Shown here: positions 44,193-48,533 of the stretch, piece by piece | How the letters are laid out: every line of letters starts with the position of its first letter | Position numbering within the stretch: position 1 is the stretch's first letter | Assembly: GCF_001570605.1 (NCBI RefSeq) | Contig: NZ_BBXG01000003.1 | Coordinates: 186,001 to 250,000 of the forward strand | From: Herbidospora cretacea | GTDB lineage: Bacteria > Actinomycetota > Actinomycetes > Streptosporangiales > Streptosporangiaceae | DNA length: 64,000 nt | Reading direction: 5' to 3' | Translations under genes and position numbers: made by a program | Notes under the pieces: generated by a model | The model's database searches: none | Told to the model about the DNA's origin: nothing | Seen by the model: only the letters and a program-made list of their open reading frames with translations

Positions 44193-44592
44193 GGCGGACG
44201 AGCCGGCCGGACGGCCGCGTCGGGACCCTTCCACGGGTCCCGCCGAGGAAGGTCCGGGCTCCACAGGGCAGGGTGGTCGGTAACGCCGACCCGGGGCGAC
44301 CCGCGGGACAGTGCCACAGAGAACAGACCGCCTTTCCCTCACGGGAGAGGTAAGGGTGAAACGGTGGTGTAAGAGACCACCAGCGCCCCCGGTGACGGGG
44401 GTGGCTAGGTAAACCCCACCCGGAGCAAGGTCAAGAAGGGGGTCCCCGGACTCCCGCGCGCGCCGCTTGAGAGCAGCCCGTTCGATGGCGCGCGGGTAGA
44501 CCGCTTGAGACCACGAGCAATCGTGGCCCTAGATGGATGGCCGTCGGTCAGCAATGACCACAGAACCCGGCCTATAGGCCGACTCGTCCGCC
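44193..44592 (+). ncRNA. rnpB: RNase P RNA (class A)
   Basis: The catalytic RNA of RNase P, which matures tRNA 5' ends. The conserved core is plain: GAGGAAGGTCCGGGCTCC at about 44245, CACAGAGAACAGACCGCC, the GGTAAGGGTGAAACGGTGG / GTAAGAGACCACCAG arm, and CACAGAACCCGGCCTATAGG near the end. Helix P1 is closed by 44193-44202 pairing with 44583-44592 (GGCGGACGAG with CTCGTCCGCC), which fixes both ends. The length of about 400 nt is normal for actinobacteria. The last 31 bases are repeated at 46129, and the immediate 3' flank lacks a strong terminator, unlike the flank of the second copy. Confidence 0.97.
44562..44592. repeat. left copy of 31-bp perfect direct repeat (att-like) at the rnpB 3' end
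   Basis: From AGAACCCGGCC to CTCGTCCGCC, these 31 bases are identical to 46129-46159. The right edge coincides with the last base of rnpB, as in att sites of elements that insert in RNA genes. Confidence 0.9.
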
Positions 44593-44840
44593 CCTGAGCC
44601 TTCGATCAGGCGAGAGATCATTTCCAAGATCGCTGGTTCCGTCAGGGTTCCGCGAGCGAAACTGATCATTCTGTCGGTGGGTGCCGTGCCCAGTCTTCCT
44701 CTCCGAGGAACGGTTTATTGGATTTTTCGCCTCCGGCATTTACGAGCTGCATGGATGTGCGCTCCCAGGTAGATCCATCAGCCGTGAGGGCCTTCGAGGT
44801 AGGCGGCGAGCACGGTTCCACTCTCAAGTGAACCTTCGTG

Positions 44841-44868
44841 TTGTATATTTGAGGTACATGGGTACTAG
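44841..44868 (+). promoter_or_regulatory. possible promoter of the ribbon-helix-helix-like gene
   Basis: TTGTAT and TACTAG are 16 bases apart in an unusually AT-rich stretch ending 17 bases before the ATG. GGTAC occurs twice (GAGGTACATGGGTAC), a possible autoregulatory site. Confidence 0.35.
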
Positions 44869-44885
44869 GAGCTCAGGAGGTGTCC

Positions 44886-45170
44886 ATGACGATGCCACGC
44901 CCGGCCAAGAGGCAAGCACCGCTAAAGGTCGACCCGGCAACCGATGAGCTGATCTCGCAAGGAGCCCACTTCCTCGGAGTGACCAAGAAAGACCTGGTCG
45001 CCACCGCAGTACGTGTCTACCTGGACCAGCAACGGGAACAGGTCCGACGCGGGATGATCGAGTCGATGAAGGTTCTGGACGGTTCCCTGTCTTCCAGCGT
45101 GTCCCTGCTGAGCGGTCTGTCGCCCGACCGCGTCACCGAACTCGGCGGCACTGGCGACTGGGAGGAATGA
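44886..45170 (+). CDS. small ribbon-helix-helix-like protein (antitoxin-like)
   Basis: The 94-residue protein starts at the ATG 5 bases after AGGAGG (the ATG at 44892 is equally possible). A basic N-terminus (PRPAKRQAPLKVDPATDELI) is followed by helix-turn-helix-like text GVTKKDLVATAVRVYLDQQREQ, resembling CopG/RHH DNA-binding antitoxins, and an acidic C-terminal tail ending DWEE. The stop overlaps the ATG of the following broken gene (AATGA), an arrangement seen in toxin-antitoxin pairs. I do not recognise the exact family. Confidence 0.68.
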   Translation: MTMPRPAKRQAPLKVDPATDELISQGAHFLGVTKKDLVATAVRVYLDQQREQVRRGMIESMKVLDGSLSSSVSLLSGLSPDRVTELGGTGDWEE

Positions 45171-45946
45171 CATCGCCACGCATCGCGTCCGTCCCACGCT
45201 GCGCGCCCTCCGCGACGATCTGAAGCTGTCCCTGCCCTCGGCGCAGATCCCCTTGGACGCGATCAGCCACCCCCTGCTGGACAAAGGCTTCCGAGCAGTT
45301 CGCCGATCCCGGTACCGCGCACGAGCGCATCCGCGCCATCGACGATGTGGTGCTGTTCAAGGTGAAGGTGCAGCGCTGGCGCGGCGCCGTATGGATCGAC
45401 GATCCCGACGCCGAAGTTTCTGCGTGGTTGGTAGCCGCAGGCACCCGCGAAGACGGCTCCGGCGATGACTTCTACGCGACTCTGGAAGCCGGCGGAAATG
45501 CGGCCCGTGCCCGCCACAACGCGAAGCACGACCAAGCCCTGACCACCAGAACCTACAACAGGCATCTCCTGCCCACTGACGCCGACTACGACCGCTACCA
45601 GCTCGAAGCGGCCACCAGATTCGCCCTGCGTCTCAACTCCACGATTCGCGATCTCGCACGCGGTTCCCTGCGCGACGGACACGAACACGCTGCCGACTTC
45701 CCCGGCTTCCGCCTCGGCATTCTGATCCGCGCTGACGACGGAAATGAGACTTACGCGGCTATTCGCATCACCGGCTCAGCTCCGGCCAACCTGACCGCGA
45801 TGATTCTGAGCCGGGTTCCCGGCTGTGAGGCGGATGCGTGGTTCCCCGAGTACGCGCTTCCCGAACGCGATCTGCTCCCCGCCGAACAGGTCTGGTCCAA
45901 CATCATGGATCCGAAGGCCGCAGCGGAACTCTTTGAGGAATTCTGA
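45167..45946 (+). pseudogene. hypothetical gene, apparently frameshifted, partner of the RHH-like gene
   Basis: An ATG at 45167 overlaps the previous stop but its frame closes after 18 codons. Protein-like text continues in the next frame (DIATHRVRPTLRALRDDLKL to about LLDKGF, near 45289), then shifts to a third stretch starting EQFADPGTAHERIRAID and running intact to 45946 (199 residues from the GTG at 45347). Two shifts would be needed to restore one protein of about 255 residues. The intact part (FKVKVQRWRGAVWID ... AAELFEEF) matches no family I know. If expressed alone, only the C-terminal part would be made. Confidence 0.6.
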
Positions 45947-45982
45947 CCCTTTAGCTTTAGGTCCAGGTGGCAGCCCGTGCCC

Positions 45983-46024
45983 GTGCACTGCCTGACGAGT
46001 TGCCGTCGGGCGTTTTCAGTGCAC
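45983..46024 (+). terminator. double-stem hairpin after the broken gene
   Basis: GTGCACTG pairs with CAGTGCAC as an outer stem, and CCTGACG with CGTCGGG (one G-T pair) as an inner stem, followed by CGTTTTC. It lies 37 bases after the stop codon. Confidence 0.65.
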
Positions 46025-46128
46025 ATGGCGTTGAGAACTGCTGGCAAGCGACGAGAACGAGCGGCAACATTCTTGCAGGTGGCATGCGGTTCCAAGCATC
46101 TTCGTGCAGGCAGCGCTCACGCGGAATG

Positions 46129-46159
46129 AGAACCCGGCCTATAGGCCGACTCGTCCGCC
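46129..46159. repeat. right copy of the 31-bp rnpB-terminal direct repeat
   Basis: Perfectly identical to 44562-44592, but here not preceded by the rest of rnpB. Base 46128 (G against C) and base 46160 (T against C) break the match, so 31 bases is the exact extent. Confidence 0.9.
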
Positions 46160-46184
46160 TTAAGACTTTCTGGCCTGCATGAGT

Positions 46185-46221
46185 GTGCCCTCCCGGCCAG
46201 GTCTTGCGGCGGGAAGGGCAC
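46185..46221 (+). terminator. hairpin downstream of the distal repeat, probably the native rnpB terminator
   Basis: GTGCCCTCCCG pairs with CGGGAAGGGCAC (one bulged base), followed by TTTG. It begins 26 bases after the distal repeat copy, the distance expected for an rnpB terminator. Confidence 0.65.
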
Positions 46222-46379
46222 TTTGTCGGTGATCTAAAACTGCGGGTGAGGCCGGGTCGACCGAGTGACGCGCCCGGCTGGACGCCGACCGTCACCTTGA
46301 TGGGCCTTGGGCCTTTTCATCGTGACTGTGCTGGTCGCAGCAGGTCCGGCGCGTCGGGGTGACATGAGAAGAGGCGCCC

Positions 46380-46440
46380 GGTAGGACAGCAAATCGACCA
46401 AACCCGATGCCCGACCGGGAGCCTCGATTGCTGTCCTACC
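46380..46440 (+). other. inverted repeat around the transposase start
   Basis: GGTAGGACAGCAA (46380-46392) pairs perfectly with TTGCTGTCCTACC (46428-46440). The right arm contains the likely TTG start, so in an RNA read in from outside the start would be buried, a device known to limit transposase expression in other IS. Confidence 0.6.
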
Positions 46441-47205
46441 CTGCCTCGATCCCCTTGTCGAACCACACCCTGATCCGCCTGGCCGAACTGATCCGCGCGC
46501 ACCGCCGGCCTGGGCGGCCGATGGCGCCGTCTCAACTCCAGCCATCAGGCGCTGCGGGTCCTGGCCCATCTGCGTAACGGCGACACCTATACCCGGCTCG
46601 CCTCCGGTTTGGGATCGGCACCAGCACCGCCTGGCGATACGTCCGCGAGACCCTTGGCCTGCTCGCCGGGCTCGCCGATGACGTGCATGCCGCTGTGGCA
46701 CACCCAACGTCTGGCCTACGCGATTCTGGACGGCACGCTCATCCCGATAGACCGACTGGCCGACCAGCAGCCGTACTACTCGGGCAAACACCGCCGGCAC
46801 GGGGTCAACGTCCAGGTGCTCGCCGACCCGGCCGGACGCCTGGTCTGGGCCTCCCCCGCGCTGTCCGGAGCCGCACACGATCTGACGTCCGCCCGCACTG
46901 CAGGTTTAGTCGACGCGCTGACCAGGGCGGGGGTGAAGGTGTTCGCGGACAGGGGCTATCAAGGCGCGGGCGGGACGATCCGCACCCCGTTCAAACGCCA
47001 CCGGCACCGACCGCGGCTGTCGAGCGGGCAGAAGGCCGTCAGTTGCGCGCATGCCCGCATCCGAGCGATCGGCGAACGCGCCGTGGCGACGCTGAAAGCC
47101 TGGAAGATCATCGAGCAGCTCCGCTGCTGCCCTCATCAGGCCACCACGATGGTGCAGGCCATCCTCGTCCTGCACCACATCGAAACCGGCTATCGATCAC
47201 GATGA
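46428..47205 (+). pseudogene. IS5-family DDE transposase, multiply frameshifted
   Basis: The reading runs LLSYPASIPLSNHTLIRL, then shifts near 46510 to WRRLNSSHQALRVLAHLRNGDTYTRLAS, again near 46607 to GIGTSTAWRYVRETLGLLAGLADDV, and again near 46690 to QRLAYAILDGTLIPIDRLADQQPYYSGKH. The DDE residues survive (DGTLIPIDR, FADRGYQG, GERAVATLKAW) but cannot be joined in one protein. The C-terminal frame (46609-47205) is open. Similar to IS112-like transposases of Streptomyces, from memory. Confidence 0.85.
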
Positions 47206-47296
47206 AAAGGGCTCCTTGTAGCCAACCGCTCTGGATTCCGGAGATCGACCTGCACTCCGCGAGGCATGGTCCAGTACGAGCACGCGACAGACCTTT

Positions 47297-48082
47297 TCAG
47301 TAGGCGCTTCGAACCCGGTAGGTGCCGTGACTCTTCTTGCCGCGGCTGCTCACGGGCCGGACATCCGGGCGAACAGCCCGGTACACCGGCACGATCTCCT
47401 CCAGGTAGTGGTTATCCAGCAGCCAGCTGATCGGCACCTCTTCCGGCAGCGGCGGAGCCTCAGGAATGAGCCTGCTGACCACGTGATACTGCGTCCCGCC
47501 TCCAGGCTGCTGGAACGCCGGTGCGATCGGACCCACTTCGACACGGAACGGCTTGAGCACCCGGAACGCATGGTAATTGCAAGGATGCTGAGGATCCGCC
47601 GGATTGGTGTTGAGATTACGCGGCGGCAGCGCGCGCTTGATGAACAGGTCGCCCAGCGGCGACATGAAAGATCCCCCGTTGCCGCCGAAACGATCGAGCT
47701 TCATGCCGATCTGCAGAAACGTCGTCTTGGCCAGCAGCCGCCCGTTCGGGTAATTCCCGGACCGGCCGAATCCGGAGTCAGGCGGGAAACGGTAATTCTG
47801 CACGGCGTAATCCCAGTACCGCGAGAGAAAGTGCTGCGGCGTGAGCCCACCGAACGGCACATAACCGCGCAGGACGGCGCCGAGATAGTGGGCCTTCGGC
47901 AGGTAGGTCGGCCCCAGGTCAGGGTCGCCGGTCACGTACGGCGGCCCGCAGACCAGCCCGGCGGGCGGCGGCGACTGGACCAGACGGGTGTTCGGCTGGA
48001 CGGCGCTGTCGGCGTGCGCGGCCACGCCGCTCATCAGGCACATCGCGGTGGCCAGCATGGCGCTGCGTCGGTGGAATCGCAT
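47297..48082 (-). CDS. secreted TNT-domain protein (NAD+ glycohydrolase-type toxin)
   Basis: The ATG at 48082 follows GGGGAAG by three bases and starts a Sec signal peptide (MRFHRRSAMLATAMCLMSGVAAHA). The 261-residue protein carries a tuberculosis-necrotizing-toxin-like domain (about 75-207): GGLTPQHFLSRYW, LDRFGGNGGSFMSPLGD, RALPPRNL, HAFRVLKPFRV, PAFQQPGGGTQY. The Arg of DRFG (131), Arg150 and Gln198 match the NAD-binding positions I recall for TNT. Two cysteines (45, 168) could form a disulphide. Toxins of this type degrade NAD in target cells. No WXG100 or channel domain and no obvious immunity gene is adjacent. Confidence 0.85.
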   Translation of the reverse strand: MRFHRRSAMLATAMCLMSGVAAHADSAVQPNTRLVQSPPPAGLVCGPPYVTGDPDLGPTYLPKAHYLGAVLRGYVPFGGLTPQHFLSRYWDYAVQNYRFPPDSGFGRSGNYPNGRLLAKTTFLQIGMKLDRFGGNGGSFMSPLGDLFIKRALPPRNLNTNPADPQHPCNYHAFRVLKPFRVEVGPIAPAFQQPGGGTQYHVVSRLIPEAPPLPEEVPISWLLDNHYLEEIVPVYRAVRPDVRPVSSRGKKSHGTYRVRSAY

Positions 48083-48533
48083 GACTTCCCCATTGATCGT
48101 GCACAACAAGGCGAATGACGGTAGACCACAAGCGATTCAGCGACGCATCGGACGGCGAAATACGCACATGTCCGTATGTGTGAATGCGGCGATCGTGATC
48201 TACATTCCCGCCGCTGCCCTTATTGCACACCTTCGATGCGATAAGGGGAAAGTAAAACCTCCACCGAACGATCGGTGTTTGGAATGCGGGCAAAGCCCGC
48301 GAACTGGAGAGAGTCTCCCGCTGGGCCTACTCGCGCATACGTGAACAAATAGGGTGAAAGAGTGCCGCGACGACAGAGGAAATGCCGCTGAGCCGGAAGG
48401 CTCGCCAGCGGCCAGAACGTGGCTTCTGCTCAGGCAGCGGCTGCCACGGGCCGCTTCTCTGGCCGGACAGACGCCCCATGAACCCCCACCGCGAGGTTGG
48501 GCGTCGAGCCGTGCGTATTTGCGTGACCGGCTT
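48083..48533. other. intergenic segment with small palindromes, no gene seen
   Basis: It holds CACAT-GTCCGT-ATGTG (48165-48180), a hairpin CACCGA-ACGA-TCGGTG-TTT (48262-48280) and GCGGGC-AAA-GCCCGC (48286-48300). The first could be an operator for the toxin gene; the other two look like terminators. The segment is AT-richer than average around 48150-48260. Confidence 0.5.

Follow-up and report, generated by a model that had tools for sequence, protein, structure and literature searches.

AICEs with a tyrosine integrase are, in the vast majority of cases, targeted to the 3′ ends of tRNA genes, according to the survey of Ghinet et al. (2011, PMC3218068), whose main text contains neither "rnpB" nor "RNase P." At a tRNA-Arg gene of Streptomyces, one to three AICEs or defective AICEs with different integrases, together with a remnant, have been described between direct repeats (PMC9513070). 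CIMEs, as outlined in PMC5704250, lack genes for integration or transfer, keep their flanking att sites, and stand in tandem with other elements. Among the matches listed, in which few subscription journals were covered, none was recognized by its title or the start of its abstract as dealing with rnpB as the target of an element. PMC8776855 and PMC2705793, in which rnpB or RNase P RNA is combined with att or integrase terms, were irrelevant to rnpB as a target as far as their matched passages go. Accretion and decay of AICEs are known at tRNA genes; we found no report of rnpB as a target.

Here, we describe a 1.57-kb unit at the 3′ end of rnpB in Herbidospora cretacea, located in the window (the whole 64-kb stretch of DNA that was analyzed; the features are listed in Table 1). 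We consider it likely that the unit is a fused, decayed, and integrase-less remnant of the CIME kind, flanked by att sites, at a site used by AICEs. The locus resembles the pSAM2-type AICEs in that neighbors at the rnpB site carry a tyrosine integrase, RepSA, and FtsK/TraB and in that the 3′ end of an RNA gene is occupied with the gene left intact; it differs in its target, rnpB, and in the window's unit, which has none of these three genes. As in CIMEs (e.g., those related to ICESt1), integration and transfer genes are absent from the window's unit, attL and attR are both retained (31 of 31 positions in the cores, E = 4e-22 for the right arm and 1.9e-4 for the left arm), and the unit stands in tandem with another element. 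Unlike in CIMEs, its two arms are of different kinds; of a putative mobilization in cis by an accreted element, the only sign is an indirect one, a second species with the same unit. The Streptomyces tRNA-Arg accretion shares the AICEs or defective elements plus a remnant between repeats, and the different integrases, whereas here the gene is rnpB, several genera are involved, and the unit is apparently fused from two kinds. Integron cassette arrays likewise consist of several small units parted by a repeated recombination site, but the sites here are RNA gene ends with long arms, and integrase fragments or a broken integrase occur in 8 of the 18 small units.

Table 1. Features at the rnpB locus (positions in the window).
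Feature	Position	Strand	Evidence
rnpB, RNase P RNA class A, intact	44199..44590	+	Rfam RF00010, 294.2 bits, model 1-367/367
att site 1, 3′-terminal 31 bp of rnpB, including the 3′ strand of the terminal helix	44562..44592	+	31/31 versus 46129-46159
Unit left end, with a left arm resembling type 2 (GTTCCG twice, 11 bp apart)	44593..44849	+	Left-arm HMM
Cargo module of two genes (RHH and partner) with their leader	44850..45950	+	Same left edge elsewhere, blastn
RHH/VapB-like small protein gene, 96 aa	44880..45170	+	Weak PSK_trans_fac; 7 homologues 71-99% identical
Partner gene, no family match, disrupted	45171..45946	+	Two frames; homologues 255-261 aa
Unit right arm, type-1 kind	46015..46134	+	Right-arm HMM, E 4e-22
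att site 2, second copy of the 3′-terminal 31 bp of rnpB	46129..46159	+	31/31 versus 44562-44592
Remnant left arm of another element (type 1) standing in tandem	46160..46286	+	Congener similarity and type-1 arm HMM
IS element, 14-bp terminal inverted repeats, DDE transposase ORF 46609-47205	46312..47210	+	PF13359, E 7.9e-27

rnpB was called with a score threshold of 100 bits for RF00010, and the 31-bp repeat ends 2 bases beyond the end of the Rfam model. The first-pass annotation had reported that the final 31 bases of rnpB recur perfectly, and this was confirmed as first described; rnpB itself is intact. None of 100 shuffled sequences matched the repeat with three or fewer mismatches, and its 25-bp core occurs in just two copies (≤2 mismatches) in the 8.28-Mb genome (G000, the window's own; G006 below is another Herbidospora). 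The core of att site 1 also terminates rnpB in other genomes of the family Streptosporangiaceae. Duplication of the rnpB end in place, without any insertion, has a counterpart in G007, where a partial and internally deleted second copy of rnpB stands ahead of the second core. In the window, however, the second copy is preceded not by rnpB but by an arm common to 19 sites in 12 other genomes, and five of the six congeners have no segment match at E = 1e-10. Such a duplication was discarded for the window on the right-arm match (E = 4e-22), and we regard it as extremely improbable.

The unit was annotated as holding a promoter-like AT-rich leader, an RHH-like gene, a broken partner gene, and a terminator, but no integrase. 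The absence of an integrase was borne out by tblastn of the window's region with the integrases of both types found at rnpB sites (see below), and no protein match to an integrase, a replication initiator, or TraB/FtsK was obtained in 44562–46159. A terminator-like hairpin is present at 45989–46012 (three matches in the terminator scan versus a mean of 1.4 in shuffled sequences). The promoter-like leader gained no support from the sigma-70 scan, which found no promoter. The RHH-like gene was retained: its Pfam match to PSK_trans_fac is weak (E = 0.0019, 19.5 bits, below the cut-off of 28.3) and its likeness to VapB/Rv0623 is also weak, and all seven homologues compared align over the full length. 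As for the partner gene, the start of the G006 protein matches ORF 45253–45468 and the remainder matches another frame, ORF 45347–45946, which is the longest piece from a start codon (199 aa), and five homologues have 255 to 261 aa. These data agree with a broken gene; to the contrary, one whole-genome search found the window partner 96% identical over residues 7 to 229 of the G006 protein, with no stop, in a 240-aa open frame. The open partner gene of G006 lacks the initial stretch present in longer homologues.

The partner gene and its homologues gave no match in Pfam, NCBIfam, PADLOC, PHROGs, or PDB, and we can only guess that it forms a toxin–antitoxin-like pair with the RHH gene. Homologues of the partner occur in 33 of 341 genomes of the family, G000 included; among plasmids, just three partial relatives were found (38% of the query). 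In blastn comparisons with 13 other loci, the match of the cargo module begins at cassette base 258 or 259 in nine and further in for the other four (L158, L159, L164, and L165); in five of the 13, which are loci with the same left edge, it also ends at base 1354 to 1358. When AICEs were looked for near the module elsewhere, a simple expression detected no tyrosine recombinase in any of 11 fetched loci; L157 has one weak tblastn integrase match (26% identity) ~8 kb from the module. In G007 (L011:1414–3021), a copy of the RHH/partner module stands directly ahead of the partial second rnpB copy, with no element right arm. The proposal that the unit is a cargo remnant fits an att-flanked unit with an RHH gene and a disrupted partner.

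The rnpB-end core (≤2 mismatches) was found in 208 of 341 genomes of the Streptosporangiaceae, where absence may just mean a diverged rnpB end, and in all seven Herbidospora genomes, four of which have at least two copies. At least two core matches were counted by hand in 46 of the 341 genomes, some being on separate contigs and those of G072 partly overlapping on both strands. Forty-five core regions from 39 genomes were sampled, and rates within this sample are biased because about half of the regions were picked for several copies. They contain 27 units between consecutive cores (≤4 mismatches), ranging from 683 bp to 20 kb, of which 18 are <3.5 kb; small decayed units lie at the rnpB site in other genomes as well. 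A full-length integrase match was obtained by tblastn in seven of the 27 (that of G074 has an internal stop), and four units (G002, G005, G057, and the second unit of G198) have RepSA and FtsK/TraB beside the integrase. With their own integrase, replication initiator, and TraB/FtsK, these four are AICEs. Between its two rnpB-end copies, G002 encodes an integrase (PF00589, 1.2e-17), RepSA (PF20199, 5.7e-155), and FtsK (PF01580, 1.6e-28), and homologues were detected by tblastn in G005, G057, and G198. pSAM2-type AICEs are found at the rnpB site in Herbidospora galbida, H. solisilvae, Planotetraspora, and Planomonospora; the integrase loci of G002 and G005 match H. galbida and H. solisilvae. The 3′ end of rnpB is therefore best read, from these sequence comparisons, as an attachment site for AICEs in the family. 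In G198 (L024–L025), two AICE-like elements of 17.0 and 18.5 kb with different integrase types stand in tandem at one rnpB, the first of them encoding a different integrase (PF00589, 2.9e-20) together with an FtsK-family protein and showing a weak match to Toprim. The 3′ end of the integrase gene lies 1.3 kb from the rnpB-side core in G005 (L008) and 5.9 kb in G002 (L004–L005), and extra DNA thus seems to have entered the left ends of these two AICEs.

Integrase relatives were collected from public genomes (the best 80 of 119 were kept). Among these, all eight integrases with at least 59% identity to the type-1 enzyme have an rnpB-end core 0.1 to 5.9 kb past their 3′ end; seven lie at rnpB itself, and L068 lies at one of the inner cores in an rnpB array. 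The core (≤3 mismatches) was found in two of the remaining 72 loci, L122 (Rugosimonospora) and L129 (Haloactinopolyspora); rnpB was detected by Rfam in L122 and not in L129. In a tree of 79 sequences (77 of the 80 plus two; several branches are long), the rnpB-linked integrases fall into two clades, type 1 (nine rows, one sequence being present twice, support 100/100) and type 2 (two rows, 100/100), which correspond in this small sample to the two kinds of arms described below. A phage origin was discarded: one exact core pattern had no match in viral_contigs, and the 248 phage records that gave a match to the type-1 integrase were all <60% identical. A single plasmid relative of this integrase was found (29.8% identity). 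In a class-level sample, a degenerate core was present in 112 of 394 genomes, and six further pairs of cores on the same contig were fetched. The copies are 17 to 18 kb apart in G430 and G521, with an integrase near the right end, and 9.7 kb apart in G309, with an integrase beside rnpB, which suggests that further lineages use rnpB as a target. A simple expression detected no tyrosine-recombinase signature in the 14 to 30 kb between the cores of G455, G482, and G613. In these signature-free stretches of f18/g85 genomes (L175–L176 in G455), GmrSD-like and DEAD-helicase proteins were observed between the rnpB-end copies of G613 (L177–L178) and a P450 between those of G482 (L171).

Past many cores, the left end has a motif that is repeated at a distance of 11 bp, GGGCAC in type 1 and TGTTCCG in type 2 (arm repeats named as GGGCACA and CTGTTCCG); these repeats are putative arm-type binding sites of the integrases. 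By motif, 23 of 72 core copies have a type-1 and 11 of 72 a type-2 left end, and the rest fall in neither class. Right ends in other genomes have GCAGGT-like repeats and GGAAT..GAACC ahead of the core, and the right arm of the window's unit has two GCAGGT-like repeats ~31 bp apart and the same GGAAT..GAACC. Ungapped comparison of the left ends was near chance. The arms of the window's unit were assigned with profiles built without G000 and G006. The right-arm HMM, made from 19 right ends of 12 other genomes (19 of 33 candidates, picked by the GCAGG motif), has its best match in the 64-kb window at the right arm of the unit, and the type-1 right-arm HMM made without any Herbidospora matches 46019–46134 (E = 3.8e-18). 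The type-2 left-arm HMM, made from 11 left ends of other genera with the core excluded, has its best match in the window at 44614–44712 (E = 1.9e-4, also without any Herbidospora; next best 0.037). The window left end reads GGTTCCG where others read TGTTCCG and was assigned to type 2 by a widened pattern and this profile. It resembles the 3′-terminal part of type-2 integrase genes, and tblastn of 44593–44849 gave no match with the type-2 integrase. The unit is integrase-less, and nevertheless its left end resembles those of integrase-bearing elements.

The pairing of the arms bears on how the unit arose. Fourteen units with a type-1 left end were compared: a type-1 right arm scores at least 20 bits in 12, weakly (10.5) in one, and not at all in one. 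Among the six units whose left end is of type 2, three (G082, G161, and G198) have a right arm of that type as well, with TGTTCCG ~117 bp ahead of the core, and G017 has none; in those of G000 and G006, the left end is paired with a type-1 right arm (75 and 69 bits) that scores nothing with the type-2 right-arm profile. Seven units without an assignable left end were left out, the right-arm classes were sorted by eye, and 8 of the 12 type-1 and two of the three type-2 units had been in the training sets of the right-arm profiles. In this small and partly circular sample, the unit is suggestive of a fusion of a type-2 left end with a type-1 right end, and tandem elements seem in the window's case to have been fused into a new att-flanked unit. 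Alternatively, a single AICE may have lost its middle, the right arms being variable and no kinds being fused. Units with just integrase fragments beside rnpB (e.g., G075, G201a, and G199) would suit such a deletion, as would the low number (three) of other type-2 units with a scorable right arm. The TGTTCCG-bearing right arms of those three and the exclusively type-1 scores of the G000 and G006 right arms speak against it, and we judge it unlikely. The fused CIME-like remnant remains the best reading because the left end is of one kind and the right end of the other.

Over 66 to 93 bp, a length that includes the core, the sequence after att site 2 is 81 to 90% identical to what follows rnpB in five of the six congeners, so a cassette-free arrangement exists (five of six congeners by blastn and four of six by the type-1 arm profile made without Herbidospora). 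In the congeners, this stretch was at one time taken for a native terminator, a view that was dropped when the comparison of left ends revealed a type-1 arm; the type-1 left-arm HMM has its best match in the window at 46167–46286 (E = 4e-5; 0.0085 when built without Herbidospora). The predicted empty site, in which rnpB runs straight into 46129–46221, does exist, but what lies past 46159 is the left end of a decayed element and not virgin chromosome. The IS element at 46312–47210 occupies the expected place of the remainder of this second element; its transposase is possibly divided between two frames (ORFs 46407–46577 and 46609–47205). Just past it, a protein with a TNT (Tuberculosis necrotizing toxin) domain is encoded on the minus strand (47297–48109, Pfam E = 6e-29).

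Among 341 family genomes, the unit was detected in full in G000 and G006 only, at least part of it being present in 35 (G000 included). The G006 copy is 95.7% identical over 1539 columns and occupies the second slot, behind a 785-bp type-1 mini-unit, whereas the window's unit comes immediately after rnpB and is itself followed by a type-1 left end. The upstream chromosomes of the two genomes are 88.7% identical over 23,437 aligned columns, and none of 439 overlapping windows of 1536 columns reaches 95.5% (maximum 93.6%). The first-pass proposal of site-specific integration at the 3′ end of rnpB thus gains from the element-type arms, the AICEs of congeners, the cassette-free sites, and this other slot; with the two identical rnpB-end sites, the evidence from sequence indicates integration at the site and an att-flanked unit.

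The same annotation had raised a satellite mobilized in trans, that is, a nonautonomous minimal cassette still excised and integrated by an AICE integrase, whether from a resident or an incoming element. A mobile cassette would suit the perfect att cores, the conserved right arm, and the two GTTCCG motifs of the left arm, as well as the different slot of the G006 copy and its identity above that of the aligned chromosome. A single helper would, however, have to act on a type-2 left and a type-1 right arm, with the reserve noted above for the small and partly circular sample, and a helper was not found in either genome: matches to the type-2 integrase in G000 are only 30 to 33% identical, and G006 has no match at E = 1e-10 with this query, which did find the type-1 enzyme in G002 and G005. 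No resident AICE of the rnpB type is apparent in G000, since the core occurs there only twice, and the partner gene is disrupted. The satellite proposal was not upheld, and we find it very unlikely.

Here, we propose how the CIME-like remnant may have formed. Every incoming element would supply the final ~31 bp of rnpB anew, and rnpB would stay intact for this reason. A type-2 element would once have stood upstream of a type-1 element at rnpB. A deletion may then have joined the interiors of both elements and removed the att site between them, leaving a type-2 left end, the RHH/partner cargo, and a type-1 right end. The unit would later have moved between species, either in cis, together with an AICE of its array, or through homologous exchange between arrays; its presence in two species could also reflect homologous recombination of the array. 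A broader scheme, in which the 3′ end of rnpB is an actinomycete assembly platform where several AICE lineages share a site and small att-flanked gene units, the RHH module among them, are fused, captured, and passed between species as modules made of conjugative-element debris in an integron-like manner, is doubtful, and we would not lean on it.

The two integrase clades, each with its own arm motifs, are possible natural tools for targeting rnpB in actinomycetes. These observations indicate that conjugative elements in the Streptosporangiaceae and, by signs, beyond share an essential ribozyme gene as their landing site.
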